Origin: Psychrobacter sp. JCM 18902
GTDB taxonomy: Bacteria > Pseudomonadota > Gammaproteobacteria > Pseudomonadales > Moraxellaceae
Reading direction: 5' to 3'
Length of the DNA: 64,000 bases
NCBI RefSeq assembly: GCF_904846615.1
Contig: NZ_CAJHBK010000001.1
Location: 620,001-684,000 of the forward strand
Each line of letters starts with the position of its first letter. The stretch's first letter is position 1. A model generated the notes under the pieces. The model did no database searches. It was not told the DNA's origin and saw only the letters and a list, made by a program, of their open reading frames with translations. Both the position numbers and the translations under genes were made by a program. Positions 19,352 to 45,700 of this stretch are shown in pieces.

Positions 19352-19686
19352 AAAATACCTATTAATCAGATATCTGTTTATCAGATATCTATAAACTGTA
19401 TCAATGGATAAGCTGACAGCGAAATAGCTGCCAGTTTAATGATAAATCGTCCACCTGCTAGCCACTGACTCACAGGTGAAATATAGAATTATATACTAGG
19501 GCGCATCCTCAGTCTGAATGAAAGCACCTAAATGGATTAAAAATGGTTAAATTTTGCCAAACAGCTGGTTAATATGCCGATATTATCTGCACTATTTTCC
19601 TAGTTTGGCTGCCATTTATCGCATTTCTATTACCAATTTTAAAATGAGGACCCGCACTAGCTAAGCTATTAATTGCTTATAAAAAC
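19352..19686. other. fixH-ccoG gap
   Basis: 335 bases between two same-strand genes of the cbb3 locus. Half of it is the MITE-like element listed separately. The rest has an ATC/GAT-rich repeat TCAGATATCTGTTTATCAGA near 19366-19385 and no recognised promoter. Confidence 0.4.
19499..19657 (-). mobile_element. MITE-like palindrome-ended element, copy D
   Basis: About 159 bp flanked by TA (CTAG at both sides). Read on the minus strand it aligns along most of its length with the copies at 36955, 44188 and 45531. It is more diverged than those, with ends GGGCGCATCC/GGACCCGCAC. Confidence 0.8.
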
Positions 19687-21096
19687 CTACTGCCCTTGAG
19701 TAGTAAATACGTTTTGTTTACTGACTTTATACTGACCATCTTCACTGGTCACATTTAGGGTCACTGATGTTTGTTCAAAATCGATGACCTTAGGATCGCC
19801 ATAAATACTCACAGGCATATCAAAGCTTTCACCTGCTTCTAATGGTACATCGTTGAATCGCAGCGCCAAGCTCAAACCTTCTTGTGGAGCAAGGGTTATT
19901 GTATAGGTATGCGGCTCTTGTGTCTTATTAGTCAGCTTGACGATATAGCTGTTTTCAATCATGCCTTGATTATTCACTGAGGACAACTGGTTACGGTCAC
20001 GGCGAATATCAATTTCTAACGGTACACGGTCCGTCAATGCATAAATAACGCCACCACATAAAATAGTAATAACAGCTAAATAAGCAAATAGACGTGGACT
20101 GATGACGCGGGTATTTTCTTTTTCTGACAACTGTCGTTCTGTTGTATAACGAATGAGTCCACGTGGATACCCGACTTTATCCATAATTTCATTACAAGCG
20201 TCAACACAAGCCGCGCACTGTATGCAAGCGACTTGCAAGCCATCTCGAATATCAATGCCAGTCGGACATACCTGCACGCACATGGTGCATTCAATACAGT
20301 CGCCTAAATGTTCAGGATGGGTGCCTTTTTTGCGTGCCCCGCGAGGCTCACCGCGCTCATAATCATAAGATACGACCAAGGTATCTTTATCAAACATGAC
20401 ACTTTGAAAACGACCGTATGGGCAGATTTGGATACACATCTGCTCACGCATATAACCTGCATTGACGTAGGTAGCAAAGGTGAAAATAAACATCGACACC
20501 CATACCCATGTTGGCCAATCAGGAATAGGAATAAAACCAATGGTTTGCCAGCTTTGATATAAATAATCTGTTCCAGCGACATAACTGACAAAGGTTGCCG
20601 CAGTAATCACTGAAAATACCAACCAAATAAAATATACCAAAGAACGTTTAAAGGCTTTTTTTGCGCTCATCGGTTCTTTGTCAAACTTGATACGTTTGTT
20701 GCGATCGCCAATCACCCATTTTTCAACATATTGATAAAGATGTGTCCAAATCGTCTGAGGGCAGGCATAGCCACACCAAACACGCCCCGCATACACAGTC
20801 ACCATGAATAAAGTGAATGCGGCAATAATCGCAAAGGCGGCAATGAAGTAAAAATCTTGGGTCAAAAAAGTCATGCCAAAAATATAGTAATGCTGCGAGG
20901 GAACATCAAGCCATATTGCTTGCCTACCATTATAACGTAACCATGGCAAAAGCAGAAAAGCGGCTAAAAGCGCATACATCGTGACGATACGAATGTTTTG
21001 ATAAAAACCGGTGACAAACCTAGGGTGAACTCGATGCTTGGTCGCATCAAGGTCAATTTGCTGTACAGGGATTTTATTGGGTTGTGGTGCTGACAT
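19687..21096 (-). CDS. ccoG: Cytochrome c oxidase accessory protein CcoG
   Basis: 469 residues. CcoG (FixG/RdxA) is an inner-membrane iron-sulfur protein; in studied species it reduces copper for assembly of cbb3 oxidase. Membrane helices occur near 33-52, 80-105, 155-180 and 190-212. Two ferredoxin-type clusters are visible: CIECTMCVQVCPTGIDIRDG and CIQCAACVDACNEIMDK, and GYACPQTIW is typical. A C-terminal Ig-like domain (about 360-469) follows another helix. GAGG lies upstream of the ATG. It follows ccoP on the same strand, beyond a strong terminator, so it probably has its own promoter in the 480-base gap. Confidence 0.95.
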   Translation of the reverse strand: MSAPQPNKIPVQQIDLDATKHRVHPRFVTGFYQNIRIVTMYALLAAFLLLPWLRYNGRQAIWLDVPSQHYYIFGMTFLTQDFYFIAAFAIIAAFTLFMVTVYAGRVWCGYACPQTIWTHLYQYVEKWVIGDRNKRIKFDKEPMSAKKAFKRSLVYFIWLVFSVITAATFVSYVAGTDYLYQSWQTIGFIPIPDWPTWVWVSMFIFTFATYVNAGYMREQMCIQICPYGRFQSVMFDKDTLVVSYDYERGEPRGARKKGTHPEHLGDCIECTMCVQVCPTGIDIRDGLQVACIQCAACVDACNEIMDKVGYPRGLIRYTTERQLSEKENTRVISPRLFAYLAVITILCGGVIYALTDRVPLEIDIRRDRNQLSSVNNQGMIENSYIVKLTNKTQEPHTYTITLAPQEGLSLALRFNDVPLEAGESFDMPVSIYGDPKVIDFEQTSVTLNVTSEDGQYKVSKQNVFTTQGQ

Positions 21097-21500
21097 AAAC
21101 GTGCCTCTTTTAAAAAAGAATCAGTTTGCTGGCATGATGAACAAACATCTTTAATCATCAGATGTATGAGTGTGTGATGTTATCAATGTCAGTAAGTAGC
21201 GGATAAAATATTGAACAGAAAAATATTTTAACCCATCTACCAAATGATCGATTGCAAATAGCTTAATGAGAATGGGTGATTATCTTCTAAATTAGCCACT
21301 AATAAGTGGTTTTTAGGTATTATCATTTTAGCATTCTCCCTATTATAAATGGGGTAATAATCTTAAAAACCAATCAATATATCAGCATAATGATCGATAT
21401 ATTGGTCGTGCTCTATGCAGTATTAAACTGCATTTCATTTGCTACTCAAATTTTGACAATGCGGTAGCAGTTAATAAACTCTCATCAAAGAATTTATAAA
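21097..21500. other. ccoG-ccoP gap
   Basis: About 400 AT-rich bases between the ccoNOQP terminator and ccoG. It should hold a ccoG promoter. No FNR-type TTGAT-N4-ATCAA box or other named site was recognised. Confidence 0.3.
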
Positions 21501-21533
21501 AAAAGGAGAACTGCAATAACAGTTCTCCTTTTA
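21501..21533 (-). terminator. ccoNOQP terminator
   Basis: Arms AAAAGGAGAACTG and CAGTTCTCCTTTT around a 6-base loop, with a T-tract on the minus strand. It is about 45 bases after ccoP. Confidence 0.9.
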
Positions 21534-21575
21534 TCAAATCCTATCAACTGATGCTATGACAACCATCTTTAAATA

Positions 21576-22712
21576 TTAGTTAGTCGTCGTTTCTACAGTG
21601 GTTGCTACTTGAGTAGCGGTTGGTGCTTTAGCAGCAGGTTGAGGGGTTTTATCTGATAATGAGTAAACATAAGCTGCAAGCAGCATAATACGCTCATTAC
21701 CCAGTTTGGTTTCCCACTCAGGCATCACACCAGCACGACCATAACGTAAGGTTTCGCGGATGGTCTCACGATCACCACCATATAACCAAATGTCATCTGT
21801 CAAGTTTGGCGCGCCAGTAGAAGTCATACCTTTGGCATCTGCACCATGACAAAGTACACAGTTAGTCGGCTCATTAAAGATTGCCTCACCTTGAGCGACT
21901 TGAGCTTTATCAAGCTCGTAACCAGGTTGGTTGCCAGATATTGATAGCACGTATTCAGATACCGCACGTACCCCATCTTCACCGATTTGATCACGCCATG
22001 CAGCCATACCACCAACTCGACCTTTATGTAGCGTGGTCAAAATGTTTGACGCTTCTCCGCCATATAACCAGTCATTGTCAGTTAGATTTGGATAGCCTAC
22101 TGCACCTTTGGCGTTAGAGCCATGACAGACCGCACAGTTCTGTAAGAACAAACGACTACCAACTTTTAAAGCATTCGGGTTTTCTGAAAGCTTTTCTACA
22201 TAAGGGGATAGTTCTGCAGTTTTCTCATCAATTTGAGCTTGCAGATCTGCTGGTGGTGTTTCACTGCGGCGCATCGTTGCCTGTAACTCAGCAAGTGCCG
22301 CTAAGGTCTCTGTCGCACCACTAGCATCCGCTTTTGCTAAGATGTTTTTCTCAAAGTTATCCGTAAATACTTTGTTATTACTCTCAAGCTCGCTATATAG
22401 CTCGTTCTTAGAGGTCCACGGTACCGTTTCGCCATCGACTTCTACAGTGGCAATACCTTCCCATTTTGATGGGAAAATACCTGGGAAAAATACCCAATAG
22501 GCAACACCCCAAGCGATAGAGCCAAAAAATATTACGAGCCACCATTTAGGTAATGGCTTGTCGTACTCTTTGATACCATCATAAGCGTGGCCTGTCGTAC
22601 CGTCATCTTCTAGTTCTGGCTTGTACTTCAATACCATTAGTAAGACACCGAGGATAGCAGCCCAACACATGATACTTAGTATGGTAATCCAAGAACTCCA
22701 AAAAAATGTCAT
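21576..22712 (-). CDS. ccoP: cbb3-type cytochrome c oxidase subunit CcoP
   Basis: 378 residues, a membrane-anchored dihaem cytochrome c that passes electrons to CcoO/CcoN. It has two N-terminal membrane helices (about 8-28, 57-78) and haem motifs CAVCH (193-197) and CVLCH (285-289). Axial methionines are likely in GGMAAW and GVMPEW. It is longer than the usual about 300 because of an about 80-residue Ala/Glu-rich insert (about 100-180) between the second helix and the first haem domain. It overlaps ccoQ by four bases. Confidence 0.95.
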   Translation of the reverse strand: MTFFWSSWITILSIMCWAAILGVLLMVLKYKPELEDDGTTGHAYDGIKEYDKPLPKWWLVIFFGSIAWGVAYWVFFPGIFPSKWEGIATVEVDGETVPWTSKNELYSELESNNKVFTDNFEKNILAKADASGATETLAALAELQATMRRSETPPADLQAQIDEKTAELSPYVEKLSENPNALKVGSRLFLQNCAVCHGSNAKGAVGYPNLTDNDWLYGGEASNILTTLHKGRVGGMAAWRDQIGEDGVRAVSEYVLSISGNQPGYELDKAQVAQGEAIFNEPTNCVLCHGADAKGMTSTGAPNLTDDIWLYGGDRETIRETLRYGRAGVMPEWETKLGNERIMLLAAYVYSLSDKTPQPAAKAPTATQVATTVETTTN

Positions 22713-22891
22713 CGTTTATCCTTATTGCGCTGCTCTTCAGACAGAGATTTTATATCCTCGTCATCAAGCGCAAGTTGTGCATCTTCTTCGAAGCGTTTTT
22801 TGTTTTTTGGCGAATACGCCCACCATGCAACACCTACGAAGGCAACAAAGGCAGAAACGGTCGCAATTGTTTGTAATTCACCAATACCCAT
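22709..22891 (-). CDS. ccoQ: cbb3-type cytochrome c oxidase subunit CcoQ
   Basis: 60 residues: one membrane helix (about 8-27), then YSPKNKKRFEEDAQLALDD, the typical CcoQ/FixQ tail. CcoQ stabilises the cbb3 complex. It overlaps ccoO by one base and ccoP by four, so translation is likely coupled across the operon. Confidence 0.92.
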   Translation of the reverse strand: MGIGELQTIATVSAFVAFVGVAWWAYSPKNKKRFEEDAQLALDDEDIKSLSEEQRNKDKR

Positions 22892-23529
22892 TAGCGCTGT
22901 CCTTCCATCGCGGTGCCCAGTTGCTGTAGATAAGCAACCAAAGCATCAAGTTCAGTGGCACCAAGTACAGCATCTGGTGCTCCTTCGATATCCTCTTCAG
23001 TGTAAGGTACACCAAAGCGATCACGGAATAGACGCATTTTAGTTTGAACGTTTTCACCATTCACTTCGTTGGTAGCAAGCCACGGGAAGCCAGGCATTAC
23101 TGATTCAGGTACTAGTGAACGTGGCGCAATCAAATGCTGCTTTTGCCAGTCTTCAGAATAACGACCGCCAACACGTGCTAGATCAGGTCCAGTACGTTTT
23201 GAACCCCAAAGAAAAGGGTGATCCCACGTAGATTCAGCAGCACGTGAGTAAGGTCCATAACGTTCAACTTCAGCACGTAGTGGACGAATCATCTGAGTAT
23301 GACATACGTGACAACCTTCACGAATATAGATGTCACGACCCTCAAATTCTAGTGCAGTCCATGGCTCCATAGAGGGCAGGGGAGCATTCACCCCACCTTC
23401 TTCAGGACCCTTGTTGTCATATATCAATGGTACGATTTCAACTAGCGTTGCAAAGCTAATAGCAATAACGATACCGATAACCAACAAGCCTGTATTTTTT
23501 TCAATAATTTCATGCGGTGTACCAGACAT
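22891..23529 (-). CDS. ccoO: cbb3-type cytochrome c oxidase subunit CcoO
   Basis: 212 residues. It is a monohaem membrane cytochrome c with one N-terminal helix (about 14-36) and the haem motif CHVCH at 73-77 ([17 protein letters not shown]). The downstream [24 protein letters not shown] is a CcoO signature. GGAGCGATC precedes the ATG. It is co-transcribed with ccoN (9-base gap) and ccoQ. Confidence 0.96.
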
Positions 23530-23538
23530 GATCGCTCC

Positions 23539-25020
23539 TTATACGTTAGCTGCTGAAGGTTTATCAACACTAGGTTCATGATCAGTAGGATCTGCGATAT
23601 CGACAGGCTTACCTTCTGGCATTTTAAGTGTTTTATAAACGTTATATGCCATCACAAACATACCCGATACATACAATAGGCCACCAAAAGCACGACCAAT
23701 ATATGGGAAATGTGAGAACTCAACTGTATCAACGAAGCTATATACCAATGTACCGTCTGGATTAGTAGCCAGCCACATCATGCCTTGGCCAATACCAGAA
23801 ATCCACATAGATACGATATAGAAAATAGTACCCGCTGTCGCTAACCAAAAATGCGTGGTGATTAAGCTGATAGAATACATCTTAGGTTTGTTATAGATAC
23901 GTGGTAACAGTACATATAGCGAACCAATGGTAATCATACCTACCCAACCAAGTGCACCTGAGTGTACGTGACCGACTGTCCAATCCGTATTATGCGATAA
24001 CGCATTCACTGTCTTAATCGACATCATTGGACCTTCAAAGGTCGACATCGCATAAAACGACAATGCCACAATCATAAAGCGAATGATCGGATCGGTACGT
24101 AATTTATCCCAGCTGCCCGATAGTGTTAGCACGCCGTTAATCATACCACCCCAAGATGGCGCAAATAGGATGATTGAGAATACCATTGCTAGAGACTGCG
24201 TCCAATCTGGAAGCGCTGAATAATGCAAATGGTGACCACCAGCCCACATATATGACGCAATCAATGCCCAAAAGTGAACGATAGACAAACGGTAAGAATA
24301 AATAGGACGACCAATCTGTACTGGAACGAAGTAATACATCATTCCTAAGAAAGCTGCCGTTAGATAAAAACCTACCGCGTTATGTCCGTACCACCACTGC
24401 ACCATCGCATCAGTCGCACCACCAAATAACGAGTAAGACTTAAATGCGCTAACAGGAATCGCCATGCTGTTTACGATATGCAGTAATGCAATCGTAATAA
24501 TAAAGGCTGCAAAGAACCAGTTAGCCACATAAATATGTGAGGTTTTACGTTTGATGAGCGTACCGAAGAAAACAATGGCATAAGAGATCCATACCAAGGC
24601 AATCAAAATATCGATTGGCCACTCAAGCTCAGCGTATTCCTTGGTCGATGTTAAACCTAAAGGTAGGGTAATAACCGCTGATACGATAACGGCTTGCCAA
24701 CCCCAAAAGGTAAACCAAGCTAAATAAGGCGCAAATAACCTTGTCTTACAGGTACGCTGAACAATATAGTAAGACGTTGCGAACAGGGCAGAGCCACCGA
24801 ACGCAAAAATGACCGCATTGGTATGTAGCGGTCTTAAACGACTAAATGTCAGCCATGGAATGTCAAAGTTAAGTGATGGCCATGCTAACTGTGAAGCAAT
24901 GAACACACCAATACTCATGCCGACGATGCCCCATACCACGGCCATTATCGTAAAGAATCTTACGATAGTAATTTCGTACTCACGGTCAACTGGGGCGACT
25001 GCTGTGTTTTGTAAACTCAT
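23539..25020 (-). CDS. ccoN: cbb3-type cytochrome c oxidase subunit CcoN
   Basis: 493 residues, the catalytic haem-copper subunit that reduces oxygen to water at the inner membrane with high oxygen affinity. It has about 12 membrane helices. Recognisable blocks are [16 protein letters not shown] (low-spin haem histidine), [10 protein letters not shown] and HHLHYSA (copper and haem region), and [13 protein letters not shown]. An AGGA lies upstream of the ATG. It is the first gene of ccoNOQP. The upstream 860-base gap should contain the operon promoter; no FNR/ANR box could be read with confidence. Confidence 0.97.
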
Positions 25021-25881
25021 TGGATGATTCCTTTACAGCCCGAATTATCAACAGAATTAACTAACTCTCCGCGCTATCTGCATCATAAAAGTAATAGTCA
25101 GATAAAAATAGAATCGCGGCACATGCTGTTTTTTTTCTCGCTTATCACCATAATATTATTAACTATCAATCTAAGCTTTCGCTTTATATCAGCTGGTATT
25201 GAGGCATAAAAGCGTTTTAAACGCACGACACTCACAGCTGGTCGATAGTAGGATTGTTAATAAATCATTAAGGTGAATAAGAAGATGCGCCGTTTTTGAG
25301 CATCAAACATCTAAAGAGGTGAAGTATTTATCTTAATTATTACCAAAAATTCTGTACTAATGAAGATAGATACCAATATCCATAGGGCCATAAAAATGTA
25401 CTGACCATAGACGTATGCTAGCGGCGGCTGACAAAAAAACATGTTTGCGTAATGTTTAGTTAAAACTCCCGACTCTGTTTAAGGGTATTGTAACGCAATC
25501 CTAATCAAATATCATCAGAACTATGCGGCAAAATACAAACTCTTTGGTAAAAATCTTAGCAAGCAACTTATTATAGCTGTGCAATTTGTCTATTTTATAC
25601 CCAATTTTATCACGATTCTAGAAATACATTTTGGTGATAGAGGGACAGTAATTACTACGCTTAGATATCATGACCAGCAGCATTTTTGTAACAATGGCCG
25701 CATGAGCACTCTAAATAAGTTTTACTTATCATCAAGTCGACCTCTATAATGAGACTAAATATAAGTGATGATAGCAGTTTTTGTACTGCTATTATGAGCA
25801 ACTATTTTATCACTTGATATCCAGTCAGGCGAGTGAGCCAAACAACGGTAGCCTGAAATAACACCAATTAAGGACAATAAT
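25021..25881. promoter_or_regulatory. Long divergent gap between ccoN and the SCP2 gene
   Basis: 860 AT-rich bases without a supported gene. It should hold the ccoNOQP promoter. A hairpin with arms ATAGCAGT/ACTGCTAT lies at about 25769-25795, ahead of the SCP2 gene. A 61-codon plus-strand frame at 25024 has poor codon character and was not accepted. Confidence 0.4.
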
Positions 25882-26271
25882 ATGGCAGTTTTTTTGACAG
25901 ATGAGTGGTTTGAGCAAGTTGAGAAAATGGGTAATGAGGCAGGCGAGCTAAATTTGCCGCCAGCACTGGCGAATATGATCGTCAATCTAAAAGTATCTGA
26001 CACTGAGCAAGACATCGAAGCGAACTTTGCAAACGGTTTATTGCATCGCGGCTTGAACGACGCCGCGACAACCACATTGTTGCTTGACCGCAGTATCTTG
26101 CAATCAATCATCACTGATTTCGATACCAATGAAATTATGGGTGCTTTTATGGGTGGTAAAATTCGCGTTGAAGGCGATATGTCACAACTGATGGCAGTAC
26201 AAACGGCCCGCCCAAGTGCTGAACAAAAAGAGCTATATACTCGTATTAAATCAATGACGACCATGGCTTAA
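25882..26271 (+). CDS. SCP2 sterol-binding-domain protein
   Basis: 129 residues, a single SCP2-like lipid-binding fold. The C-terminal part MGAFMGGKIRVEGDMSQLMAVQ is the conserved SCP2 block. AAGGA precedes the ATG at good spacing. Proteins of this family bind hydrophobic ligands; the ligand and pathway are unknown here. It is a single gene with a strong terminator. Confidence 0.85.
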   Translation: MAVFLTDEWFEQVEKMGNEAGELNLPPALANMIVNLKVSDTEQDIEANFANGLLHRGLNDAATTTLLLDRSILQSIITDFDTNEIMGAFMGGKIRVEGDMSQLMAVQTARPSAEQKELYTRIKSMTTMA

Positions 26272-26313
26272 TTCTATATTCGCAGGGTTTTATACTGACA
26301 ATTGTAAGAAGAC

Positions 26314-26346
26314 GAAAAGCCCCTAATGCTTATTAGGGGCTTTTTA
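26314..26346 (+). terminator. Terminator of the SCP2 gene
   Basis: Arms AAAAGCCCCTAAT and ATTAGGGGCTTTTT around a short loop. The symmetric A/T tracts make it usable also for the convergent minus-strand gene. Confidence 0.92.
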
Positions 26347-26401
26347 TTTGATGATACATTTAATTATCATTCTTAAAAGTAGCGGATGACTCGTAAAGTA
26401 G

Positions 26402-27376
26402 TTAACTGGCTTTTGATTGCTGCGCCGCACTTTGCTGGTTTTCTTTATAGATGGCAGCTTGTAGCCAGACGTTCGCTTGTACGTAGTCATGCACTTTAAT
26501 AGAAGCCGTCTCTGGCGTGTTGAGCGCACCGATACGAATCACGAAAGGATCGGCATCTTGTTCGCGTAGTATCACGACATCAAACAGAATAATGGATTTA
26601 TCATTAAATGTTGTTTCTTGCTTGCCGAGCACCTGACCTTGGCACCATGCTTCATCTTCTTGTCCCAAAGTATCACCAAATAGATAGGCACACATGTGAC
26701 CCAAGTTGATCTCAACTGGCGCCATTTGCGCTTTGGTCTCTGGTCTCCATTCTTTGATTTGCTCTTGCAGATCATCGGGTATTTTTCCATCATTGGCGGC
26801 AACGATGTCGTTAAATGCACGGTGGTAGCGGATCGCTTCTTGATCTTCAACCATGATGACTTCGTTTTGCTCACTTAGCTTAATCTCATGTGCCCAAGCG
26901 CTAAAGTTCACAAAGTAAGACGTGTCTCGCTGATATAAATGGCGATTGGTGGTGTAGAGCTGGTCAAAGGCGTAAATAATACTGCCATCAGCGGTACGCA
27001 AGCGTAATACAGCATCGTGTGAATTGTCATTGGCAATGATGCGCTCAATCTTACAATTGAGTCCATATGGGCTATCGACACAAGGATAAGCATTGATAAA
27101 GCATTCAGGCTTGCCATTTTTCATGGCTAATACTTGATTGATATGACAAGGCTGATTTTCAGACAGCAATAGGCAGCTGTCTTGAGCGCTGACATTGCTA
27201 TTGAGGCCTTTAGGCATGGCCGCCTTTTCGATCATTTTTTGTAGCCATTCTGGCACGTCATGACTCATGTCATCGGTCAGAATACGCCAATGATCGGCGT
27301 GACCTGCAGATTGTTCATCAGTCATGGTGATTTTGGTGGGAGATTGGACGTTTTTATATTGATAATTAATGGTCAT
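26402..27376 (-). CDS. Conserved-looking protein of unknown function
   Basis: 324 residues from the ATG at 27374-27376; a TTG twelve bases upstream is the alternative. Soluble, slightly acidic, no signal peptide or membrane helix. Several Cys and Trp residues are scattered (CLLLSENQPCHINQVL, CFINAYPCVDSPYGLNC). The C-terminal 80 residues (SIILFDVVILREQDADPFVIRIG, then VHDYVQANVWLQAAIY) alternate in a beta pattern that could be an OB-like barrel, which is inference only. I do not recognise the family. It converges on the SCP2 gene. Confidence 0.8.
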   Translation of the reverse strand: MTINYQYKNVQSPTKITMTDEQSAGHADHWRILTDDMSHDVPEWLQKMIEKAAMPKGLNSNVSAQDSCLLLSENQPCHINQVLAMKNGKPECFINAYPCVDSPYGLNCKIERIIANDNSHDAVLRLRTADGSIIYAFDQLYTTNRHLYQRDTSYFVNFSAWAHEIKLSEQNEVIMVEDQEAIRYHRAFNDIVAANDGKIPDDLQEQIKEWRPETKAQMAPVEINLGHMCAYLFGDTLGQEDEAWCQGQVLGKQETTFNDKSIILFDVVILREQDADPFVIRIGALNTPETASIKVHDYVQANVWLQAAIYKENQQSAAQQSKAS

Positions 27377-29065: not shown

Positions 29066-29220
29066 ATGATTTTATATGCCGCTTAAGTTTTTATATACAG
29101 TTTAAGTTATCACCAATGCTTGTTAGTTAAAATTAATTTTAATGCAAGTTTAGGCTGATAAATTATTTGTAGCGCTGAATAAAGCATCAATACCAGTATA
29201 AATAGAATAAAGGAAAAGCC

Positions 29221-29987: not shown

Positions 29988-30153
29988 GGGTGTGTCCTGA
30001 TTTAAGTCAATTGATATCTACATGGGCTAAACTTTATCAAACGTCGTTGAACTGAACTGCTGATTCATATTTACTATGATCTGTGTTATTTCTCTTGTTT
30101 AACGGCAATTTGTCTTGCTTTTATCATCATTATTATTAAATGAGGATATACCC
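29988..30153 (-). mobile_element. MITE-like palindrome-ended element, copy E (diverged)
   Basis: About 166 bp flanked by TA. Termini are GGGTGTGTCC and GGATATACCC. Read on the minus strand, the interior follows the other copies (…AAACAAGAG…, …GATAAAGTTTAG…) but with many substitutions. It is probably the oldest copy. It lies after lolD. Confidence 0.7.
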
Positions 30154-35891: not shown

Positions 35892-36025
35892 GCGTTTTAT
35901 GTTTGAGATTTACTGTGTATGATTGTTGAGGCTGAGCGTATGATTATGCTCAGCCTCAATTGTATATGAAATTCAATGGTTATAAAAACACCCTAAATAG
36001 CGACTTAAATCGAAGAGAGCTTGTC

Positions 36026-36916: not shown

Positions 36917-36954
36917 TCGCTGATGACTATTTCTGCTCATTATTGCTTATGCTA

Positions 36955-37124
36955 GGGCGTGTCCTCATTTTAAAAATGGTCATAAAAATGAGATAAATTG
37001 CCGTCAAATAAGGAAAGTAGCGCAAATAATATCGAGATATTGATAAGCTATTTAACGATGTTTGGCAAAATTTAGCCATTTTTAACTCATTTAGAGGATA
37101 ATCGATTGAATTGAGGACACGCCC
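36955..37124 (+). mobile_element. MITE-like palindrome-ended element, copy A
   Basis: 170 bp flanked by CTAG-type TA on both sides. Termini are GGGCGTGTCCTCATTTT and AATTGAGGACACGCCC. It shares most of its bases with copies B and C. It contains no ORF. Confidence 0.88.
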
Positions 37125-37165
37125 TAGATGCGAGCTAACAAAATATCCGTTTGAGTAATGACTTT

Positions 37166-37954
37166 ATGCTAAAAAATGCTACTGGTTCGCACAATCTTAA
37201 TACGCCGCCTAAGCGCACGCCGCTATTTTCAAGGTTGGGTGTCTTTCTACTGACTGTTGGTATGCTGATGGCATTTTTTATCAGTCAGCTGCTAGGCGTG
37301 TATATCGCTGGCAAGCTAGTCTTACCAGCTTCTAAAAATTCAACCATGGCTGATATCTTCTTTTTTGGTAGTAACGATGGCACCGTGGTCAGCCTCTCTA
37401 TTATTATAGGCTGCGTGTTATTGATCGCTATTAGCCTTTTGGTGATCCGTGTAAGAGGCGGCGATAGTCGGCAGTATTTAGCGCTAAAGCCGTTCTCATT
37501 TGCGGTGGGTATGGGATTGCTTGGGCTGCTATTGATATTTATGATTAGCAGTCAGGCATTGACTTATTTGCTTGATAAATCGCCACTGCTCTTCGTCGAC
37601 CCTTTATATCAGTCTGTCAGCTCAGTATGGCTGTTGATATTTGCAATGGTCATTGTCGCGCCAATCTACGAAGAGCTGATATTTCGTGGTCTATTATGGT
37701 CAGCGATCGCAGAGCAATTTACCTCGTCAACTTATTCAAAGCATCGAGGGGCGATCGTAGCAAGCGTCTTGACCAGCTTGATATTTGCGGTGATCCATGT
37801 GCAGTATGGTATTTATGAAATCAGTACCATTGTGGTACTGGCATTGATATTTTGCTACGCGCGTATCAAGTCAGGCTCGCTGTTGCTGCCGATATTATTG
37901 CATATCGTGAATAATGGGGCGGCGATGTGGCAATATATTGCGCAAACCGCCTAA
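37166..37954 (+). CDS. CPBP-family intramembrane glutamic protease
   Basis: 262 residues from an ATG at 37166; a TTG at 37151 is an in-frame alternative. About eight membrane helices. The CPBP (Abi/Rce1) motifs are visible: EELIFRGLLWSAI (EExxxR), FAVIHVQYG and HIVNNGAAMW. The family includes prenyl-protein and bacteriocin-related proteases; the substrate here is unknown. It lies 40 bases after MITE copy A. Confidence 0.87.
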   Translation: MLKNATGSHNLNTPPKRTPLFSRLGVFLLTVGMLMAFFISQLLGVYIAGKLVLPASKNSTMADIFFFGSNDGTVVSLSIIIGCVLLIAISLLVIRVRGGDSRQYLALKPFSFAVGMGLLGLLLIFMISSQALTYLLDKSPLLFVDPLYQSVSSVWLLIFAMVIVAPIYEELIFRGLLWSAIAEQFTSSTYSKHRGAIVASVLTSLIFAVIHVQYGIYEISTIVVLALIFCYARIKSGSLLLPILLHIVNNGAAMWQYIAQTA

Positions 37955-38014
37955 ATAAATAAGGGCTATTTCGGCATCATTACACTTTTATAGCTATCAT
38001 AATAATGAATTTTC

Positions 38015-38986
38015 TTAAGCATCAGGATTTAGTAGTAACACCTCATCCGCTGCCCGTTTAATATCGTCGATTGTTAGCTGAGGTTTACCACTTAACGCCT
38101 GTCGCCATTTGCGCGCACCCGTCAGTCCTTGAAACAACCCTAAATAATGTCTTGTCATCGTTGGCAGTGCTTCACCTTTAGCAATCTGCGCCTCCATATA
38201 CGGATACAGCTGCGCTAAAATATCTGAACGCTTAGGTGCTGGTTCGTTCCATAAGCTATTGGTTTCTGCTAATAGGTAAGGGTTGTGATAAAACGCGCGA
38301 CCAATCATCACGCCATCCACATGCTGCAAATGTGCTTCGATGTCTTTAACAGTATCGATGCCGCCATTAATCTCGATATCAAGCTGTGGAAAGTCTTGTT
38401 TGAGACGATAGACATCCTCATAACGTAGCGGTGGTATCTCGCGATTTTGCTTGGGGCTAAGCCCTTGTAGCCATGCAGTACGTGCATGGACAATAAAGCG
38501 TGTACAACCTGCTGCTGCCACTTTTTCTACAAAATCCACCATAAACTCATAACTGTCAAAATCATCGATACCAATACGATGCTTCACGGTTACTGGGATA
38601 TCGACCGCCGCTTGCATGTGTTTGACCAAATCGGCAACCGTGTGCGGCTCTGCCATGAGGCAAGCACCAATCTTATTATGCTGTACGCGATCAGAGGGAC
38701 AACCAACATTGATATTGACCTCATCATAGCCATGCTGCTGCGCAAATTCAGCACATTGCGTCATCTCGCTAATATCTGCGCCGCCCAGCTGTAGTACAAG
38801 CGGATGCTCAAGCGTATCAAAGCGCAGATGCCGTGCTCGATTGCCATGTATCAGCGCGCCCGTACTGATCATCTCGGTGTACAAATAAACATGCGGATTA
38901 AAAAGCCGAGCGAAATAACGATAATCCGTCGTTGTCCAGTCGATCATGGGTGCAACGGAAAGACGTTTGTTGGTCATATCAACCAT
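38015..38986 (-). CDS. dusA: tRNA-dihydrouridine synthase DusA
   Basis: 323 residues from the ATG at 38984-38986; the frame is open further, to 39037. It makes dihydrouridine at positions 20/20a of tRNA, using FMN and NADPH. Motifs: SVAPMIDWTTTDYRYF at the start, the catalytic cysteine in NVGCPSDRVQ, KHRIGIDD, ARTAWLQGLSPKQNR, IEINGGI and VMIGRAFYHNPY. The HARTAWLQGLSPKQNREIPPL block is DusA-specific. It is a single gene. Confidence 0.95.
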   Translation of the reverse strand: MVDMTNKRLSVAPMIDWTTTDYRYFARLFNPHVYLYTEMISTGALIHGNRARHLRFDTLEHPLVLQLGGADISEMTQCAEFAQQHGYDEVNINVGCPSDRVQHNKIGACLMAEPHTVADLVKHMQAAVDIPVTVKHRIGIDDFDSYEFMVDFVEKVAAAGCTRFIVHARTAWLQGLSPKQNREIPPLRYEDVYRLKQDFPQLDIEINGGIDTVKDIEAHLQHVDGVMIGRAFYHNPYLLAETNSLWNEPAPKRSDILAQLYPYMEAQIAKGEALPTMTRHYLGLFQGLTGARKWRQALSGKPQLTIDDIKRAADEVLLLNPDA

Positions 38987-39033
38987 GGTTTTGAGCCTTA
39001 ATATTTTATAATATTGGTGTCTTAAATAAATGA

Positions 39034-39074
39034 ACAAGGTGCAATGTATGAGACATACGATTGCACCTTAATTT
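39034..39074. terminator. Long hairpin upstream of the MFS gene's end
   Basis: Arms AAGGTGCAAT and ATTGCACCTT with a nested GTATG/CATAC stem, followed on the plus strand by AATTTTTT. It lies between the end of the MFS gene (minus strand) and dusA; the minus-side T-tract is poor, so the direction is unsure. Confidence 0.6.
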
Positions 39075-39118
39075 TTTAATTTCAATCGTTAAGCAGATAA
39101 TAGGCAGCTATTAACTAG

Positions 39119-40420
39119 CTAAATAATGTGGTCGATTTTTTTAAATTCAGGCAAATTATAAAAATAAATACCCATTATTATGCCGATAAAACCGATAAAT
39201 GCAATGTAGAGCGCTGGTGAGAAACTCACATACAGAGTGGCATAACCCAGTCCAAAAGGCACAAGCACTCCAACAATACCGTAGGCGATATTATAACAAA
39301 AAGCCATTCCTGTTAGTCGTACATTGGTCGGAAATAACTGTACAAGGATGGCAGGTATCATCCCAACGATGCCAGCACAAAAGCCTAAAAGCGCATACAT
39401 AATGAGGATGTAGTCACCGCTGGCTTGCAGATGGTAAAAAAAGGCAAACATCTGAGCGATCAAAAGAATAGAGCCAACCGTCAGAATCTTACCGAAGTTT
39501 TGGTGGTTGGATATTATCCCATAAAAAATACAACCAAAAACCATGAACACAATACCCAGACTGTGTGAGAATCCAAATAAATCGCTGTCTAAGGTAAAAC
39601 GTAATTCAATCAAATCGGGTAGCAATAGCACAACAACGGTCGTGATGCTAGAAACAATAAGCGTGAGAACCATGCCGATAAATAGCGAATGCTTGCAATG
39701 CTTAAAGAGTAAATTGAAGGGTTTGGCAACATAATCGCTCGGCTTTGAGTTTTTCATTTCTAGGAAAAAGGGTGACTCATCTATCCATCGCCACGCTAAT
39801 AATGGTAATAAACTTAGAATGGCCGCGATGAAAAATGGCAAGCGCCAGCCGTAATTAGCCAATTGCTCAGTCGTCATAGAATTGGTTAACCAAAGAAAAA
39901 AGGCATTAGAAAACAGCACGCCTACATAAAAACTGGCGGTGACATAGCTACAAGATACTGACGAATATTGGCGCGGCACATGCTCTGCCACAAAAACCCA
40001 AGCGAGTGGCACATAAAGACCAAATGCCATGCCTTGTATCAGCCTCAAGACTATAAATAAGGTTGGTGCAATCAACCCCCATTGCCCATAGGTAGGTAAG
40101 CAAGCCATCGCCAACAAGCTGACCGCCGTCACTAATATACTGATCAACAGTATCGGTTTTCGGCCTTTGATATCACCATAACGACCAAAGATGATACCGC
40201 CAAGTGGGCGTGCCAAATAGCCAATTGCAAATAGCCCAAGCCCTTGCACCTTTGTAATAGCTGGATCAATATTAGCAGGGAAAAAAGCGGTCGCCATGAT
40301 ATCTGCTAGATATAAATAAATCAAAAAATCAAAAAACGCGACTGCGCTGCTAAAGCAGATAAACAGTACGGTGTTTCTGTCTTTAGAAGACATCATTGCA
40401 TATTGAGAACGAGAAGGCAT
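39119..40420 (-). CDS. MFS transporter, metabolite:proton symporter type
   Basis: About 433 residues with 12 membrane helices. The loop between helices 2 and 3 is GRYGDIKGRKPILL, and RLIQGMAFGLYVPLAWVFVAEHVP marks the metabolite:H+ symporter (MHS, ProP/KgtP-like) group. It probably imports an organic acid or osmolyte; the substrate is not determinable. In-frame starts are GTG 40438, ATG 40420 and ATG-ATG near 40396, none with a strong ribosome-binding site. Confidence 0.85.
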   Translation of the reverse strand: MPSRSQYAMMSSKDRNTVLFICFSSAVAFFDFLIYLYLADIMATAFFPANIDPAITKVQGLGLFAIGYLARPLGGIIFGRYGDIKGRKPILLISILVTAVSLLAMACLPTYGQWGLIAPTLFIVLRLIQGMAFGLYVPLAWVFVAEHVPRQYSSVSCSYVTASFYVGVLFSNAFFLWLTNSMTTEQLANYGWRLPFFIAAILSLLPLLAWRWIDESPFFLEMKNSKPSDYVAKPFNLLFKHCKHSLFIGMVLTLIVSSITTVVVLLLPDLIELRFTLDSDLFGFSHSLGIVFMVFGCIFYGIISNHQNFGKILTVGSILLIAQMFAFFYHLQASGDYILIMYALLGFCAGIVGMIPAILVQLFPTNVRLTGMAFCYNIAYGIVGVLVPFGLGYATLYVSFSPALYIAFIGFIGIIMGIYFYNLPEFKKIDHII

Positions 40421-40573
40421 AATAGGTCGCGCATCCACATATAATAGTATTCGTTAAGCCGATTATTATCTGGATAACCGGCTATAATAAAAAACGACAA
40501 ATCAATATGAAAAATAATGATTTGCCGAAAAAATAAAGACGTTTGAGCTAAAAGTTATTGAGCAATAAGCATC

Positions 40574-40665
40574 GGAGTTAAAAGCACTTGAATGAATAGT
40601 GCTTAAATGAAAAGCACTCCAACTAAAAAGTATTCAAACTAAAAAGTATTCAAACTAAAAAAAAT
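40574..40665 (+). repeat. Degenerate 16-bp tandem repeats
   Basis: AACTAAAAAGTATTCA occurs twice head to tail (40621-40636, 40637-40652) with a partial third copy after it. Upstream are decayed units of similar length (TTAAAAGCACTTGAAT, AATGAAAAGCACTCC). It lies between the PLD gene's end and the MFS gene's start. Confidence 0.75.
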
Positions 40666-40741
40666 TGGGTCAAAGAATCACTCAATAGCGCTGTTATTAT
40701 GTAAATATGACCAAGTTTTAGAGTGTTTTTGATGATGGCAG

Positions 40742-42382
40742 CTATAGCAACCAATCAATAGGTAGCCATGACATGATGGTCAGCCAGACATGATCGCTGA
40801 TATCGACGCGTGGCTCTGAATCGTAAACCACTTTTTTATCGTCTTCCATAGTATGCCACTGTAGCTTACCATTATCTGATAGTTTGACTTCATAAGCTTG
40901 GTTTAGCAGGTCATCGCTCAGCGCACCATGCAATTGTTTTGCCAGCTCATCATCATTGATGATCACACCCATTTCTGTATTGATATTGGCAGAGCGAGGA
41001 TCGACATTATAGGAGCCAATGAATACTTGATAGTCATCAACGGCAAACGTTTTTGCATGTAAACTGGTTGAGGATTGACTACGAGCTTTCCAAAGCTTGT
41101 TTTCGCGTTTTTCCTCAGAGGCGGTGGATTTTAGCTCGTAGATTTTGACACCAGCGCGCAGCAAGTTAGGTCGCCATTGACTATAGCCAGAATGCACAGC
41201 AGTCACGTCGGTCGCATCAAATGAATTGGTCAAAATCTTAATCTCGATACCAGCTTCAGCCAATTGCACTAAAGTATTGACACCATCTTTGGTGGGTACA
41301 AAGTAAGAGGAAATGATGGTTAGCTTTTTGGTTGGACTGCCTAATAAGGTACGCAATTGATGCACCAAATTGGTATCCGCTGGTACCGTTTTGGTCAGCT
41401 TGCCCACATCATCACTCAAAAACTGCATATCTGTCCAGCGAAAAGGCACGCGTTTATTGACCAAGTCACTGTCTATCGTTGACTCTTCTAGCGCTTCTTT
41501 ATACACCGTCAAATGATTGTCGCTACCTTTTTCATCCTGACCGAGCTTGTCCAGTGCCGCTAGGAAATCAGGCGCTGTATTGTTGTCAGGCTTCACTAGC
41601 GTTTCAATGTCAAATGACAAAGGCGACGACCAATAGCTTGAAAAACTGTTGTCAATATCTGCGACGACTTTACCGATGAGTAAAACATCCAAATCCGCAA
41701 ATTGACTATTTTGGTCATTGCTTAAATATTCATTGCCAATATTACGTCCCCCAATGATGGTAATCTGCTTATCAAAAGTCATGCTTTTATTGTGCATGCG
41801 GCGATTGATACGTGGCAGACCTGTGACGTAGTTTAATGTTTGAAACTTACGGTGCATCAGCGGATTGATGATTCGTACCGCGATATTCGGATGACTGGAA
41901 AAACGTAATAAATGCTGATCGAAAGTGGCATCATTATTAAAATCATCTAATAGTAAGCGTACAATGATGCCGCGTTCAGCCGCTTCCCACAGATCTTTCA
42001 ATAGTAGCTGACCAGCTTGGTCATTATGCCAAATATAATACTGCGCATCGATATTACGTGTGGACATGTCCGTTAATATGCTGCGAGAAGCAAAAGCATT
42101 GGCACCAGTTACAATGGGGTGATAGCCAGATAAATCTGGGTGAATATCATTCTGCTCGCTAATCGATGCTACCAAATCAACGTCATTGGTTGCTACTGTG
42201 TCACTTTGTCCAGTTTCTTGATTGTCTTCTTGCTGATATAAGTCATGTACTCGTGCTGATAATGCTTGGCTCTCAGGTAAGTGTGGCTGTTTTGGCAAAA
42301 CCTGACATCCACTAAGACCTAAGGTTAGTCCGAGTGTTAGACTCAACGATAAGTTGCTTGGTTCTATACTGAACATCGACAT
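40742..42382 (-). CDS. Phospholipase D-family lipoprotein
   Basis: 546 residues with two PLD catalytic HKD motifs: HNKSMTFDKQITIIGGRN and HAKTFAVDDYQVFIGSYN. The N-terminus is a lipoprotein signal ending LSGC with lipid on C26, so it should be membrane-anchored. The arrangement resembles the cardiolipin synthase-like/PLD lipoproteins of Moraxellaceae; the reaction may be cardiolipin synthesis or phospholipid hydrolysis. AAGG lies about 10 bases upstream. Confidence 0.87.
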   Translation of the reverse strand: MSMFSIEPSNLSLSLTLGLTLGLSGCQVLPKQPHLPESQALSARVHDLYQQEDNQETGQSDTVATNDVDLVASISEQNDIHPDLSGYHPIVTGANAFASRSILTDMSTRNIDAQYYIWHNDQAGQLLLKDLWEAAERGIIVRLLLDDFNNDATFDQHLLRFSSHPNIAVRIINPLMHRKFQTLNYVTGLPRINRRMHNKSMTFDKQITIIGGRNIGNEYLSNDQNSQFADLDVLLIGKVVADIDNSFSSYWSSPLSFDIETLVKPDNNTAPDFLAALDKLGQDEKGSDNHLTVYKEALEESTIDSDLVNKRVPFRWTDMQFLSDDVGKLTKTVPADTNLVHQLRTLLGSPTKKLTIISSYFVPTKDGVNTLVQLAEAGIEIKILTNSFDATDVTAVHSGYSQWRPNLLRAGVKIYELKSTASEEKRENKLWKARSQSSTSLHAKTFAVDDYQVFIGSYNVDPRSANINTEMGVIINDDELAKQLHGALSDDLLNQAYEVKLSDNGKLQWHTMEDDKKVVYDSEPRVDISDHVWLTIMSWLPIDWLL

Positions 42383-42394
42383 AAATGAATTACC

Positions 42395-42604
42395 TTAGTG
42401 AGCCTTACATAAAGAAGTATTTGTTAGAAAGTAAGCGTGAGGGCATGTCCTCATTTTTAGTCCATTAAAAAGACTATCAATTGAATGAAGGACATGCGCT
42501 AGTGCATCGTTTATTTTACCGATGATAGCACTGATTACGAAGCGTATAACAATATCGCCCAAGGCAAAAATTAAATCGCCGCTAAGCTTATCAGCTGTCG
42601 TCAT
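42395..42604 (-). CDS. Small ORF whose 3' half lies in a MITE relic
   Basis: 69 residues. The first about 35 (MTTADKLSGDLIFALGDIVI, RFVISAIIGKINDA) look like a real protein start with a hydrophobic segment and an AGG upstream. The rest (from about LAHVLHS) is encoded by the shortened MITE at 42441-42499 and what lies past it. It is best read as a small gene truncated by the element, possibly non-functional. Confidence 0.35.
   Translation of the reverse strand: MTTADKLSGDLIFALGDIVIRFVISAIIGKINDALAHVLHSIDSLFNGLKMRTCPHAYFLTNTSLCKAH
42441..42499 (-). mobile_element. Internally deleted MITE-like element, copy F
   Basis: 59 bp that keeps only the two ends: GGGCATGTCCTCATTTTTAG and ATCAATTGAATGAAGGACATGCGC, with TA after the right end. 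The interior of about 110 bp is missing. Confidence 0.7.
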
Positions 42605-42861
42605 CTATGCCTATTATAAATACGTTATTTTTGTTAGATTCAGCGACTTATCCAGTCATTATTTACTTATCGTCTCTCTTTCATCTGTTGTTGAGAAAGA
42701 GATAGATGTGTATTCAAAAATAATATTTAGCCATCGCTTGAAACCAGCTGTGTGGAATAAGTTGACATGATATGATAACGCTAATGAATTCGGTCGATAA
42801 TCAGAAGAATAAGCAGTCATTTTATATCAATCAAAATACCAATCAAAGCAACGGAATATTT
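42500..42861. other. Gap upstream of metZ
   Basis: About 360 bases, partly the minus-strand small ORF. No SAM- or SAH-type riboswitch was recognised ahead of metZ, and no other structure. Confidence 0.3.
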
Positions 42862-44151
42862 ATGAGTCAGTCGCAAGCCCATGATGATAAAAATGTAGAT
42901 AAATTAGATCCAAACTGGCGCAGTGACGCGCTCAATTTAGATCTCGATTATGGTATGCAAACCATTGCTGTACGGGCAGGGCAACATCGTACCGATGAGG
43001 GTGAGCACTCAGAGGCTATTTTTACTACCAGCTCGTACGTTTATACCTCAGCGGCAGATGCCGCGGCACATTTTAATGGAGAGAAGACGGGCAACGTGTA
43101 CTCACGCCATACCAATCCGAGTGTGCGTACCTTTGAGCGTCGTTTGGCAGCGCTTGAAAACGGTGAGCGCGCAGTGGCGACAGCCTCTGGCATGGGCGCG
43201 ATTTTGACCATGTGCTTGGCATATCTAAAAGCGGGCGATCATTTGCTTGCTGCCAATCAATTATTTGGCTCATCGATTGGTCTATTTAATAATTATATGG
43301 CAAAGTTCGGTGTGGAAGTCAGCTACGTTGATTGCTTCGATAATGAGGCGTGGGCAAACGCCGTTCAACCAAACACCAAAGTCATTTATTGCGAAAGCCC
43401 TAGCAATCCATTGGCACAGATTTGTGATATCGGCTTTTTAAGCCAGCTGTGTAAAGCCAATGGTATCTTATTGGTCGTTGATAATTGCTTTGCCACCCCA
43501 GCTTTGCAGCGTCCGCTTGATTTGGGTGCCGATGTGGTGATTCATTCTGCAACTAAGTATCTAGACGGTCAGGGTCGAGTACTCGGCGGCGCATTGGTCG
43601 GCAGTGATAAGCTCATGCAAGAGGCGTTTACCGTGGTACGTTCAGGCGGTATCAGTATGAGTCCGTTTAATGCTTGGGTATTTACCAAAGGGTTAGAGAC
43701 GCTGAAACTGCGTATGCAAGCGCATTGTCAAAATGCCAATCAAGTGGCAGAGTTTTTGGTCAATCATCCCAATGTCAGTGCCGTACATTTCTCAGGTTTG
43801 AGTGATCATCCCGCTCATGAGCTTGCGACGCGTCAACATCATATGACAGATGGCTATGGTGCTATCATGGGTTTTGAGGTAAAGGCTTCTGACAGCACCG
43901 ATTCAAATAGTCGTGATTCGAAATCTGCCGCTTGGCATGTCATTGATTCCACCCAAATGGTTTCTATTACTAATAACTTGGGTGATGCTAAAACCACCAT
44001 TACTCATCCTGCGACCACCACCCATTTTCGTTTGAGTGCAAAAGAGCGCGCAGAAGCGGGCGTCAAAGATGGCCTTATTCGTTTGTCAGTAGGCTTAGAA
44101 GATGTAGAAGATATCATCAAAGATTTGGCGCGTGGTTTAGACAGTTTGTAA
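42862..44151 (+). CDS. metZ: O-succinylhomoserine sulfhydrylase MetZ
   Basis: 429 residues from the ATG at 42862 (GGA upstream); the frame is open 90 bases further. It makes homocysteine from O-succinylhomoserine and sulfide with PLP, in methionine biosynthesis. Motifs are VYSRHTNPSVRTFERRLAAL, ATASGMGAI, VIYCESPSNP, VVDNCFATPALQRPL, and the PLP lysine in VIHSATKYLDGQGRVLGG. The ending RLSVGLEDVEDIIKDL is typical. The N-terminus fits MetZ better than MetB, but specificity was judged by eye. Confidence 0.9.
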   Translation: MSQSQAHDDKNVDKLDPNWRSDALNLDLDYGMQTIAVRAGQHRTDEGEHSEAIFTTSSYVYTSAADAAAHFNGEKTGNVYSRHTNPSVRTFERRLAALENGERAVATASGMGAILTMCLAYLKAGDHLLAANQLFGSSIGLFNNYMAKFGVEVSYVDCFDNEAWANAVQPNTKVIYCESPSNPLAQICDIGFLSQLCKANGILLVVDNCFATPALQRPLDLGADVVIHSATKYLDGQGRVLGGALVGSDKLMQEAFTVVRSGGISMSPFNAWVFTKGLETLKLRMQAHCQNANQVAEFLVNHPNVSAVHFSGLSDHPAHELATRQHHMTDGYGAIMGFEVKASDSTDSNSRDSKSAAWHVIDSTQMVSITNNLGDAKTTITHPATTTHFRLSAKERAEAGVKDGLIRLSVGLEDVEDIIKDLARGLDSL

Positions 44152-44187
44152 AGATAACGGTATAATCGCGGTTAGCACTTTATATTA

Positions 44188-44356
44188 GGGCGTGTCCTCA
44201 TTTCAAAAATGGTGATAAAAATGAGATAAATTGCAGTCAAACGAGGAAAATAGCGCAGATAATATCGGGATATTAACCAGCTATTTAACGATGTTTGGCA
44301 AGATTTAACCATTTTTAGCCCGTTTAGATATGATCAATTGAATTGAGGACACGCCC
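44188..44356 (+). mobile_element. MITE-like palindrome-ended element, copy B
   Basis: 169 bp flanked by TA, with termini GGGCGTGTCC/GGACACGCCC. It is near-identical in layout to copies A and C and lies between metZ and ybaB. Confidence 0.88.
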
Positions 44357-44402
44357 TAGTAAAATATCAATCATTTATGATTAAAAAACAAAAGAGGCAA
44401 CT

Positions 44403-44732
44403 ATGAATATTCAAGCATTAATGCAACAAGCACAAACGATGCAAAAGAAAGTCGAAGCAAACGTTGAAAATGCTAAAAAAGAGCTTGCGAATAAAGAAGT
44501 ACAAGCTGAAGCGGGCAGTGGTCTGGTAAAAGTTACCATGACGGGTCGCCATGTGGTTAAGCGTTTAACCATCGATCCAAGCTTGCTAGAAGATGAGCCA
44601 GATATGATCGAAGATCTTATCGCTGCTGCTATCAATGACGCCGTTCGTCAAGCAGATGCGCTATACGAAGAAACCATGGCTGGCGCGACCTCAGGCATGG
44701 GTCTACCACCAGGTATGCAAGGTATGTTCTAA
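44403..44732 (+). CDS. ybaB: YbaB/EbfC nucleoid-associated protein
   Basis: 109 residues. It is a small DNA-binding dimer often encoded with recR. It has [38 protein letters not shown] and the Gly/Met-rich tail [14 protein letters not shown] precedes the ATG. recR follows after 119 bases. Confidence 0.95.
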
Positions 44733-44770
44733 GTCGTTATTTTTTAAGCCAAACACGACATATTAAAGAC

Positions 44771-44809
44771 AAAATGGGGTTGTTATCGATACGATACGAC
44801 CCCATTTTC
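44771..44809 (+). terminator. Hairpin between ybaB and recR
   Basis: Arms AAAATGGGGT and ACCCCATTTT with a nested GT...AC stem. It is followed by CAT, so the T-tract is only four bases and read-through into recR is likely. Confidence 0.65.
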
Positions 44810-44851
44810 ATAGCTACGATTTATAAATTAAGTTAAATAAAGGAAGATGCT

Positions 44852-45445
44852 TTGCTGACAGCCAAATTTGATCAGCTGGTTAAACAGCTGCGTATTTTGC
44901 CGGGTGTGGGTCAAAAAAGTGCCCAACGTATGGCACTGCATTTGCTCACCAAAAAACGCCCACAAGGCATGGCACTTGCCCAAGCTCTTGATGAAGCGAT
45001 GCGCGATATCGTCGAATGCCAGCGCTGCCACAGCTTCAGTGATGATCGCATCTGTCCGCTGTGCCAAGACCCAAGGCGTGATGATGCCTTATTATGCGTG
45101 GTCGAAACGGCAGCAGATGTGATGGCTATCGAACAAACCGCAGGCTACCGTGGCCGCTACTTTGTATTAGGTGGTCATTTATCACCGATTGATGGTATTA
45201 GCGCTGATGATTTGAATATTGAACAACTGGTCTGGCGGGTCAAGCAAGAGCCTGTTGAAGAGTTGATATTGGCGACTGGTACGACTGTCGAAGGGCAGAC
45301 CACCGCGCACTTTATCAGTGCAGCGGTTAGTCGTCATGTTAATAAGGTCACACGTTTGGCACAAGGTGTACCAATGGGCGGCGAGCTTGAATATCTTGAT
45401 AGCATGACCCTTGGACAAGCGATGCAAAATCGTTCATTTTTATAG
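44852..45445 (+). CDS. recR: Recombination protein RecR
   Basis: 197 residues. It acts with RecF and RecO in gap repair. The start is a TTG, with AAGGA seven bases upstream; no ATG fits. It has an HhH region ([20 protein letters not shown]), a zinc finger [16 protein letters not shown], and a Toprim domain with [14 protein letters not shown] and [17 protein letters not shown]. It is downstream of ybaB, the common arrangement. Confidence 0.95.
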
Positions 45446-45514
45446 CACACTGGCATTTTTTCTATAACTTCTTTATAAAAACCAAGTCTTGTCCATTTTA
45501 TTTCATGAAATTGT

Positions 45515-45530
45515 TATAATTGATTCACTA
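45515..45530 (+). promoter_or_regulatory. Likely rnd promoter -10, immediately before a MITE
   Basis: An extended -10 TGTTATAAT (TATAAT at 45515-45520) lies 11 bases ahead of MITE copy C. Transcription would start near 45527 and pass through the element to reach rnd. Confidence 0.45.
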
Positions 45531-45700
45531 GGGCGTGTCCTCATTTTAAAAATGGTGATAAAAATGAGATAAATTGCAGTTAAACAAGGAAAATAGCGCA
45601 GATAATATCGAGATATTAGTCAGCTATTTGACGCCGTTTGGCAAGATTTAGCCATTTTTAACCTATTTAGATAACTATCGATTGAATTGAGGACACGCCC
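45531..45700 (+). mobile_element. MITE-like palindrome-ended element, copy C
   Basis: 170 bp, TA on each side, with termini GGGCGTGTCC/GGACACGCCC. It separates the likely rnd promoter from the rnd coding region. Confidence 0.88.

Follow-up and report, generated by a model that had tools for sequence, protein, structure and literature searches.

The window, that is, the whole stretch of 64,000 nt analysed here, corresponds to positions 620001-684000 of contig C1 in a Psychrobacter genome of 3.31 Mb and 5 contigs (G000, the own genome in what follows). It contains six short elements, five with lengths of 159-170 bp and a sixth of 59 bp, all lacking a transposase gene and bounded by inverted ends of the GGGCGTGTCC/GGACACGCCC type, together with a degenerate remnant of the same family, named M1:

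36955..37124, + strand: M1 MITE of 170 bp, CTA on the left and TAG on the right
44188..44356, + strand: M1 MITE of 169 bp, TTA on the left and TAG on the right
45531..45700, + strand: M1 MITE of 170 bp, CTA on the left and TAG on the right
19499..19657, - strand: diverged M1 copy of 159 bp, flanks CTA/TAG
29988..30153, - strand: diverged M1 copy of 166 bp, flanks TA
42441..42499, + strand: micro-copy of 59 bp, apparent internal deletion, TA on the right side only
59943..59984, - strand: degenerate M1 remnant, roughly 42 nt long, with 86-88% complementarity to two of the window copies

Six elements had been described in an earlier note on this DNA, and a check of the sequence agrees with it on their coordinates, on the kind of termini and on the presence of the two diverged copies on the minus strand. 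The three close copies also lie where it placed them, while the term near-identical does not apply, the pairwise identities of the 36955, 44188 and 45531 copies being 88.8%, 88.8% and 91.7% (substitutions). Similarly, the 59-bp copy is in its place and has the look of an internal deletion, whereas the TA flanks ascribed to it hold for the right side and not for the left, which ends in GTGA. A repeat search grouped the three close copies into a single family of direct repeats, with the 19499 copy as an inverted repeat of them; the 29988 and 42441 copies were confirmed from their own sequence, and the former was included in the alignment A1 described below. The 19499 copy has orthologues in G044 and G054, and no orthologue of the 29988 copy is found among the copies compared in three genomes.

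According to Pfam matches of the neighbouring genes, window copies are flanked by FixH-like and FixG-like genes, by hydrolase and CAAX-protease-like genes, by a Cys/Met-metabolism PLP enzyme and YbaB, and by RecR and a ribonuclease-D-like gene; a copy also follows an ABC ATPase gene. Other features of the window are a tandem pair of Rfam glycine riboswitch aptamers at 53827-54178 on the minus strand (55.4 and 41.1 bits), a diverged block present in three repeats 1.6-2.4 kb apart at 3190-7678, for which tellurite-resistance paralogues are a guess, and a 178-aa Ala/Ser-rich ORF at 14822-15358 on the minus strand, which spans a 45-nt repeated stretch, has no Pfam match and adjoins an HTH_Tnp_1 (PF01527) ORF at 14284-14559.

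Abundance and distribution of the M1 family

When up to one mismatch is allowed, the 13-mer GGGCGTGTCCTCA has 49 + 54 occurrences in the 3.31-Mb own genome and the reversed pattern used as control has 0 + 0, so that chance is excluded as the origin of the 103 TIR-like 13-mers. At least 43 M1 copies above 100 bits were obtained from fetched stretches of the own genome, where the best 40 of 114 candidates were scored; in general, copy numbers per genome are lower bounds, the best 40 or so matches being scored in each. Blast copies in G000, G008, G044 and G054 amount to 46, 41, 41 and 38, and to 43, 40, 39 and 37 after those below 100 bits are dropped; copies with less than 80 nt of flank and the G054 copies C1:604830 and C2:996381 were left out of the copy set. 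The alignment A1 retains 90 of 151 copies after identity thinning. The earlier note had proposed more than one burst of transposition, an idea that the data do not support: across 43 copies, divergence from the consensus spans 3.5 to 19.7% without a break, and by distance to the nearest paralogue the private copies are no younger (permutation 3443/5000).

M1 was matched in 108 of 299 family-level genomes, 91 of the 105 inside the genus and 17 outside it. Among these 17, G132 alone gives a strong match; in the remaining 16, putative matches reach best E-values between 6.5e-10 and 9.4e-4. G132, which belongs to another genus of the same family, carries M1-like elements at C108:2727-2896 and C122:4486-4655 (73-74%). 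A scan of named genomes with a degenerate 38-nt pattern returned at least 120 stretches, and 80 of 80 among the matches listed are from Psychrobacter. Spread of M1 on plasmids was rejected, as a distant blastn search, which may leave very near records outside its reach, gave no matching plasmid record. Judging from these comparisons, M1 is a MITE family common across the genus Psychrobacter.

The family is undescribed in the titles and abstract openings among the matches listed for Psychrobacter MITEs and repeats, a scope that leaves aside subscription papers and supplements. The 'mite' matches in the available portions of two Psychrobacter papers (PMC12953519, PMC4754876) are author names, 'miniature' and 'MITE' are absent from the accessible part of PMC6514802, and the TIR letters used as a literature query gave unrelated titles among the matches listed. 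As a family M1 is new; elements of its kind are well known.

Target duplication and empty sites

Target sites were defined on 137 insertions derived from 159 copies, with both ends aligned and identical rows removed; the count was made separately in each of four genomes, and an orthologous site therefore enters more than once. TA is present on both sides in 132 of the 137, the others being four TG/TA and one TA/TC. Position -3 is C (0.67) or T (0.33) and position +3 is mostly R (G 0.61, A 0.37). The target is YTAR, with duplication of the TA.

The insertions are polymorphic among relatives, and the single-TA empty sites for which the earlier note suggested looking do exist in exact form at 44188, 45531 and 36955. 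The 44188 copy has orthologous copies in G008, G044 and G054, and an exact empty TTAG is found in G019, G007 and G017 (3 of 24 loci examined, the remaining ones being diverged, occupied or not spanning). At 45531, 16 genomes comprise five exact empty sites, five occupied ones, three empty with a nearby TA, two empty and diverged, and one too weak. At 36955, G044 has an exact empty CTAG, and in G008, G046 and G039 the site is empty too, with one TA but differences in adjacent bases; it is occupied in G059, G054, G045 and G057, and the remaining 12 of the 20 loci have diverged or give too weak a match for scoring. Since empty sites exist, a spread of M1 by means other than IS ends is largely refuted.

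Insertion sequences with matching ends

A search of the genome for an IS5-family element with the same termini, also advised in the earlier note, was successful: three DUF4096 matches of the own genome correspond to insertion sequences of 838-840 bp, with TA flanks and ends reading TA followed by GGGCGTGTCCCTAAT, whose first 10 nt are identical to the M1 end in all three. None of them is inside the window, which, as the earlier note had observed, is devoid of a transposase copy. No IS framed by TIR-like 13-mers was found among pairs from 100 of the 103 own-genome occurrences; three pairs are 700-1700 nt apart, namely two pairs of MITE copies and one with an end devoid of IS similarity.

Longer matches come from relatives, where paired ends were obtained at 37 of 53 IS loci examined. 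In particular, IS5-family elements of 844 bp (L306/L307, 3' end) have 18 nt in common with the M1 right end and those of 835 bp (L291/L292) 16 nt; in all four, the transposase-3' end starts with GGGCGTGTCCTCAATT, matched by the M1 left end for 13 nt. Elements of 835-844 bp encode the transposase in two frames; on the IS5-family model NF033580 (cut-off 110) two C-terminal ORFs of the own-genome elements score 186 and 185.6 bits, and one N-terminal ORF alone scores 86.7 bits, below the cut-off. The own-genome IS proteins are also above the cut-offs for PF13340 and PF01609. The MITE is probably moved, to judge by the shared termini, by the enzyme of a full-length IS with the same ends.

A second IS type, called TCATCA, has GGGCGTGTCATCA ends in thirteen loci (L264, L266-L276, L297) and corresponds to a second MITE subfamily, M2, of 170 bp with GGGCGTGTCATCAATTAG ends, present at least four times in the own genome, where three copies were read. 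The ends of M2 agree with this subgroup over up to 18 nt on the left and 22 nt on the right; the IS 5' ends share with the M2 right end 19-22 nt in 12 of the 13 loci and 14 nt in L264. The crossed comparisons give 9 nt only, both for M1 with the TCATCA type and for M2 with the L306/L307 type. Each of the two subfamilies, M1 and M2, has ends that agree with those of a different IS subgroup. M2 used as a query finds matches in 86 of the 105 genomes of the genus, some of them possibly M1 cross-matches through the core.

ISPssp5, from a Psychrobacter plasmid, is described in the accessible part of PMC6514802 as a member of the IS427 group of the IS5 family, 837 bp long, with two overlapping genes, TA repeats and a right end reading GGGCGTGTCATCAATTA. 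Seventeen nt of this right end equal the ends of L266/L270 and of M2, and the TCATCA subgroup has in common with ISPssp5, as far as the excerpt describes it, the 17-nt ends, the length and the TA repeat (two of thirteen loci re-read). This likeness supports a putative assignment of the TCATCA subgroup to the IS427 group. The L307 and L270 elements have 58% identity, and by this comparison the subgroup matching M1 is different from the ISPssp5-type one. The IS427-type label of the earlier note is therefore supported for the M2-matching subgroup and is applied by similarity only to the M1-matching one.

These IS elements and ISPssp5 carry a transposase; the MITEs have none, and the M1 interior is unrelated to the three IS bodies compared. 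Against these, on both strands, this interior scores at best 22, with a shuffled maximum of 24, so its derivation from those tested was rejected. A simple internal deletion of a resident IS, which would account for the match between MITE and IS ends, is thus a very improbable origin of the MITE.

Taken as a whole, the repeats are, with high confidence, genus-wide non-autonomous DNA transposons (MITEs) with a YTAR target of which the TA is duplicated, moved presumably in trans by IS5-family transposases; the MITE reading of the earlier note is borne out by single-TA empty sites in relatives and by IS5-family elements with the same ends. Transposases made by separate insertion sequences would recognise the common terminal inverted repeat and, acting in trans, would insert the MITE at YTAR with duplication of the central TA. 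Against this explanation, the own-genome IS copies match M1 over 10 nt only, no pair among the 100 TIR-like 13-mers compared frames an IS, and DUF4096, present in 74 of 105 genus genomes, has no match in G054 or G019, though M1 has at least 41 and at least 14 scored matches there, so that the enzyme is either gone from these genomes now or of other domain make-up.

The M2 core is homologous to the M1 core (local score 87, with a maximum of 33 in 1000 shuffles), hence cores of common descent are combined with ends of two different IS subgroups, and these ends may have been exchanged or may have drifted together with those of the IS. Size variants occur as well: of nine TIR pairs with a length of 29-59 bp, one is in the window and eight are at other loci, and these micro-copies look like internal deletions of full copies. 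The one at 42441 has a 59-bp counterpart with few substitutions at the same place in G008 and is absent at the G001 locus.

Palindrome, RNA reading and orientation at orthologous sites

The M1 element is a full-length palindrome, and the sole one folded, 45531-45700, gives an extended hairpin on each strand (-57.6 kcal/mol, z -7.7; -45.5, z -5.6). This hairpin, the location of 41 of 43 own-genome copies between ORFs and the genus-wide occurrence of the family would also suit a REP-, ERIC- or structured-RNA-like repeat with RNA or terminator function, spread other than by IS ends. In the covariation analysis of A1 (90 sequences), three measures are above all 500 shuffles, in agreement with such a repeat, and two of five are within range. 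Paired cells are 92.4 vs 92.0% in shuffles, cells changed on both sides 39 vs 24.1 and the covariation score 0.128 vs 0.122; pairs changed on both sides (19 vs 16.0, with 80 of 500 shuffles as high) are within the shuffled range, and relatedness alone can exceed shuffles according to a warning of the tool. RNAalifold on the 90-sequence alignment gives no consensus pair and Rfam no family at gathering score within the window copies. By gene orientation, 29 copies are tandem, 8 divergent and 4 convergent, and the YTAR sites in intergenic DNA of the window are 227, 38 and 28 respectively; the copies resemble this background and no bias is evident (ORF-length gene calls only). An RNA function was rejected owing to the Rfam and RNAalifold results and to a covariation that is slight and mixed. 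Considering also the TA duplication, the single-TA empty sites and the IS-matched ends, a repeat spread in such a way is extremely improbable. Neither an IHF consensus site nor a promoter-like pair below 3 mismatches is contained in the M1 consensus, an IHF consensus site being present in 15 of 159 copies; a promoter or IHF function was rejected for want of a convincing site in the consensus.

To return to the MITE as a mobile element, 42 orthologous sites are occupied in at least two of G000, G008, G044 and G054, and at two of them the copies have opposite orientations. At 45531, the occupied relatives are opposite to G000 in five of five cases (16 genomes examined), at the same TA. The G000 copy differs by one substitution from its opposite orthologue in G045 and by two from that in G054, and by three or more from the nearest copies elsewhere. 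At C1:1474035 (L040), three relatives are opposite to G000, nine hold a short left-end remnant and four are unscorable. The nine remnants (L519-L527) represent the element left end in the G000 orientation, and the same 16 nt that they contain are carried by the right flank of the intact copy, which suggests that the remnant is the product of a deletion between 16-nt direct repeats.

The MITE may sometimes turn around in place: an inversion is rather probable at 45531 and less so at C1:1474035, and it would result from an exchange between the inverted ends or from template switching between them. Two independent insertions into the same TA, rather than inversions of one insertion, have an appreciable probability, somewhat below even. 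The target at 45531 was free for insertion, as it is empty in many relatives, and G006 and G001 have M1 copies at other TAs of the same intergenic regions, which are therefore hit repeatedly. Variants private to the site were discarded as proof of inversion, since T26 and T51, both carried by the 45531 copy, are found jointly in 19 of 159 copies; its T134 is common to other own-genome copies and is in none of four readable orthologues, a point in favour of a separate insertion. The C1:1474035 copy of G000 is nearer its paralogues (0.976) than its orthologues (0.953), which favours an independent insertion there. Against independent insertion stand the use of exactly the same TA at both sites, the greater closeness of the 45531 copy to the opposite G045 and G054 copies than to any other compared, and the remnants in own-genome orientation in nine genomes at C1:1474035.

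By analogy, in-place inversion of such elements has a precedent in the Correia elements (CREE) of Neisseria. An inversion of CREE is mentioned as reported in the available part of PMC10969869, the primary paper on it being Elbeyioglu 2017. The excerpted text of PMC2649163 describes CREE as elements of 104-108 or 153-157 bp with inverted-repeat ends around a conserved core, a target duplication, size variants by deletion and no known protein, able to form promoters and, in the longer form, to hold an IHF site; their mobilising mechanism is given there as undetermined. The Psychrobacter elements resemble CREE, as portrayed in that excerpt, in being short, with inverted ends, a core, target duplication, deletion variants and no protein; in contrast, they differ in sequence and genus and have candidate IS partners. 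Two core-end words of CREE taken from the same excerpt (PMC2649163) have an exact match in 0 of 159 M1 copies.

The element is ordinary in kind. Also among the closest known systems is MITEAba12, whose host Acinetobacter (Moraxellaceae) belongs to the same bacterial family as Psychrobacter. In the accessible part of PMC6382973 it is 111-114 bp long, with the TIR GGCTTTGTTGCACAAA and 9-bp duplications, and is ascribed to IS elements by matching TIRs, to which the IS identity is confined. M1 differs from it, so described, in its length of about 170 bp, its GGGCGTGTCC ends and its TA duplication, and the word 'Psychrobacter' is absent from the main text of PMC6382973.

A broader picture, tentative and on the whole unlikely, is that a palindromic core of about 120 bp is kept and its ends are exchanged to follow IS types, M1 pairing with the L306/L307 type and M2 with the ISPssp5 type, and that copies flip in place at a rate high enough for the flips to show between species. 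If this were true, the core itself would be selected as a substrate for transposition or recombination. M1 accounts for dozens of intergenic palindromes in Psychrobacter genomes and its insertions are markers for comparing Psychrobacter strains; M1 and M2, in turn, have candidate IS partners that can be identified, and so lend themselves to tests of in-place inversion and of the switching of partners by MITEs.
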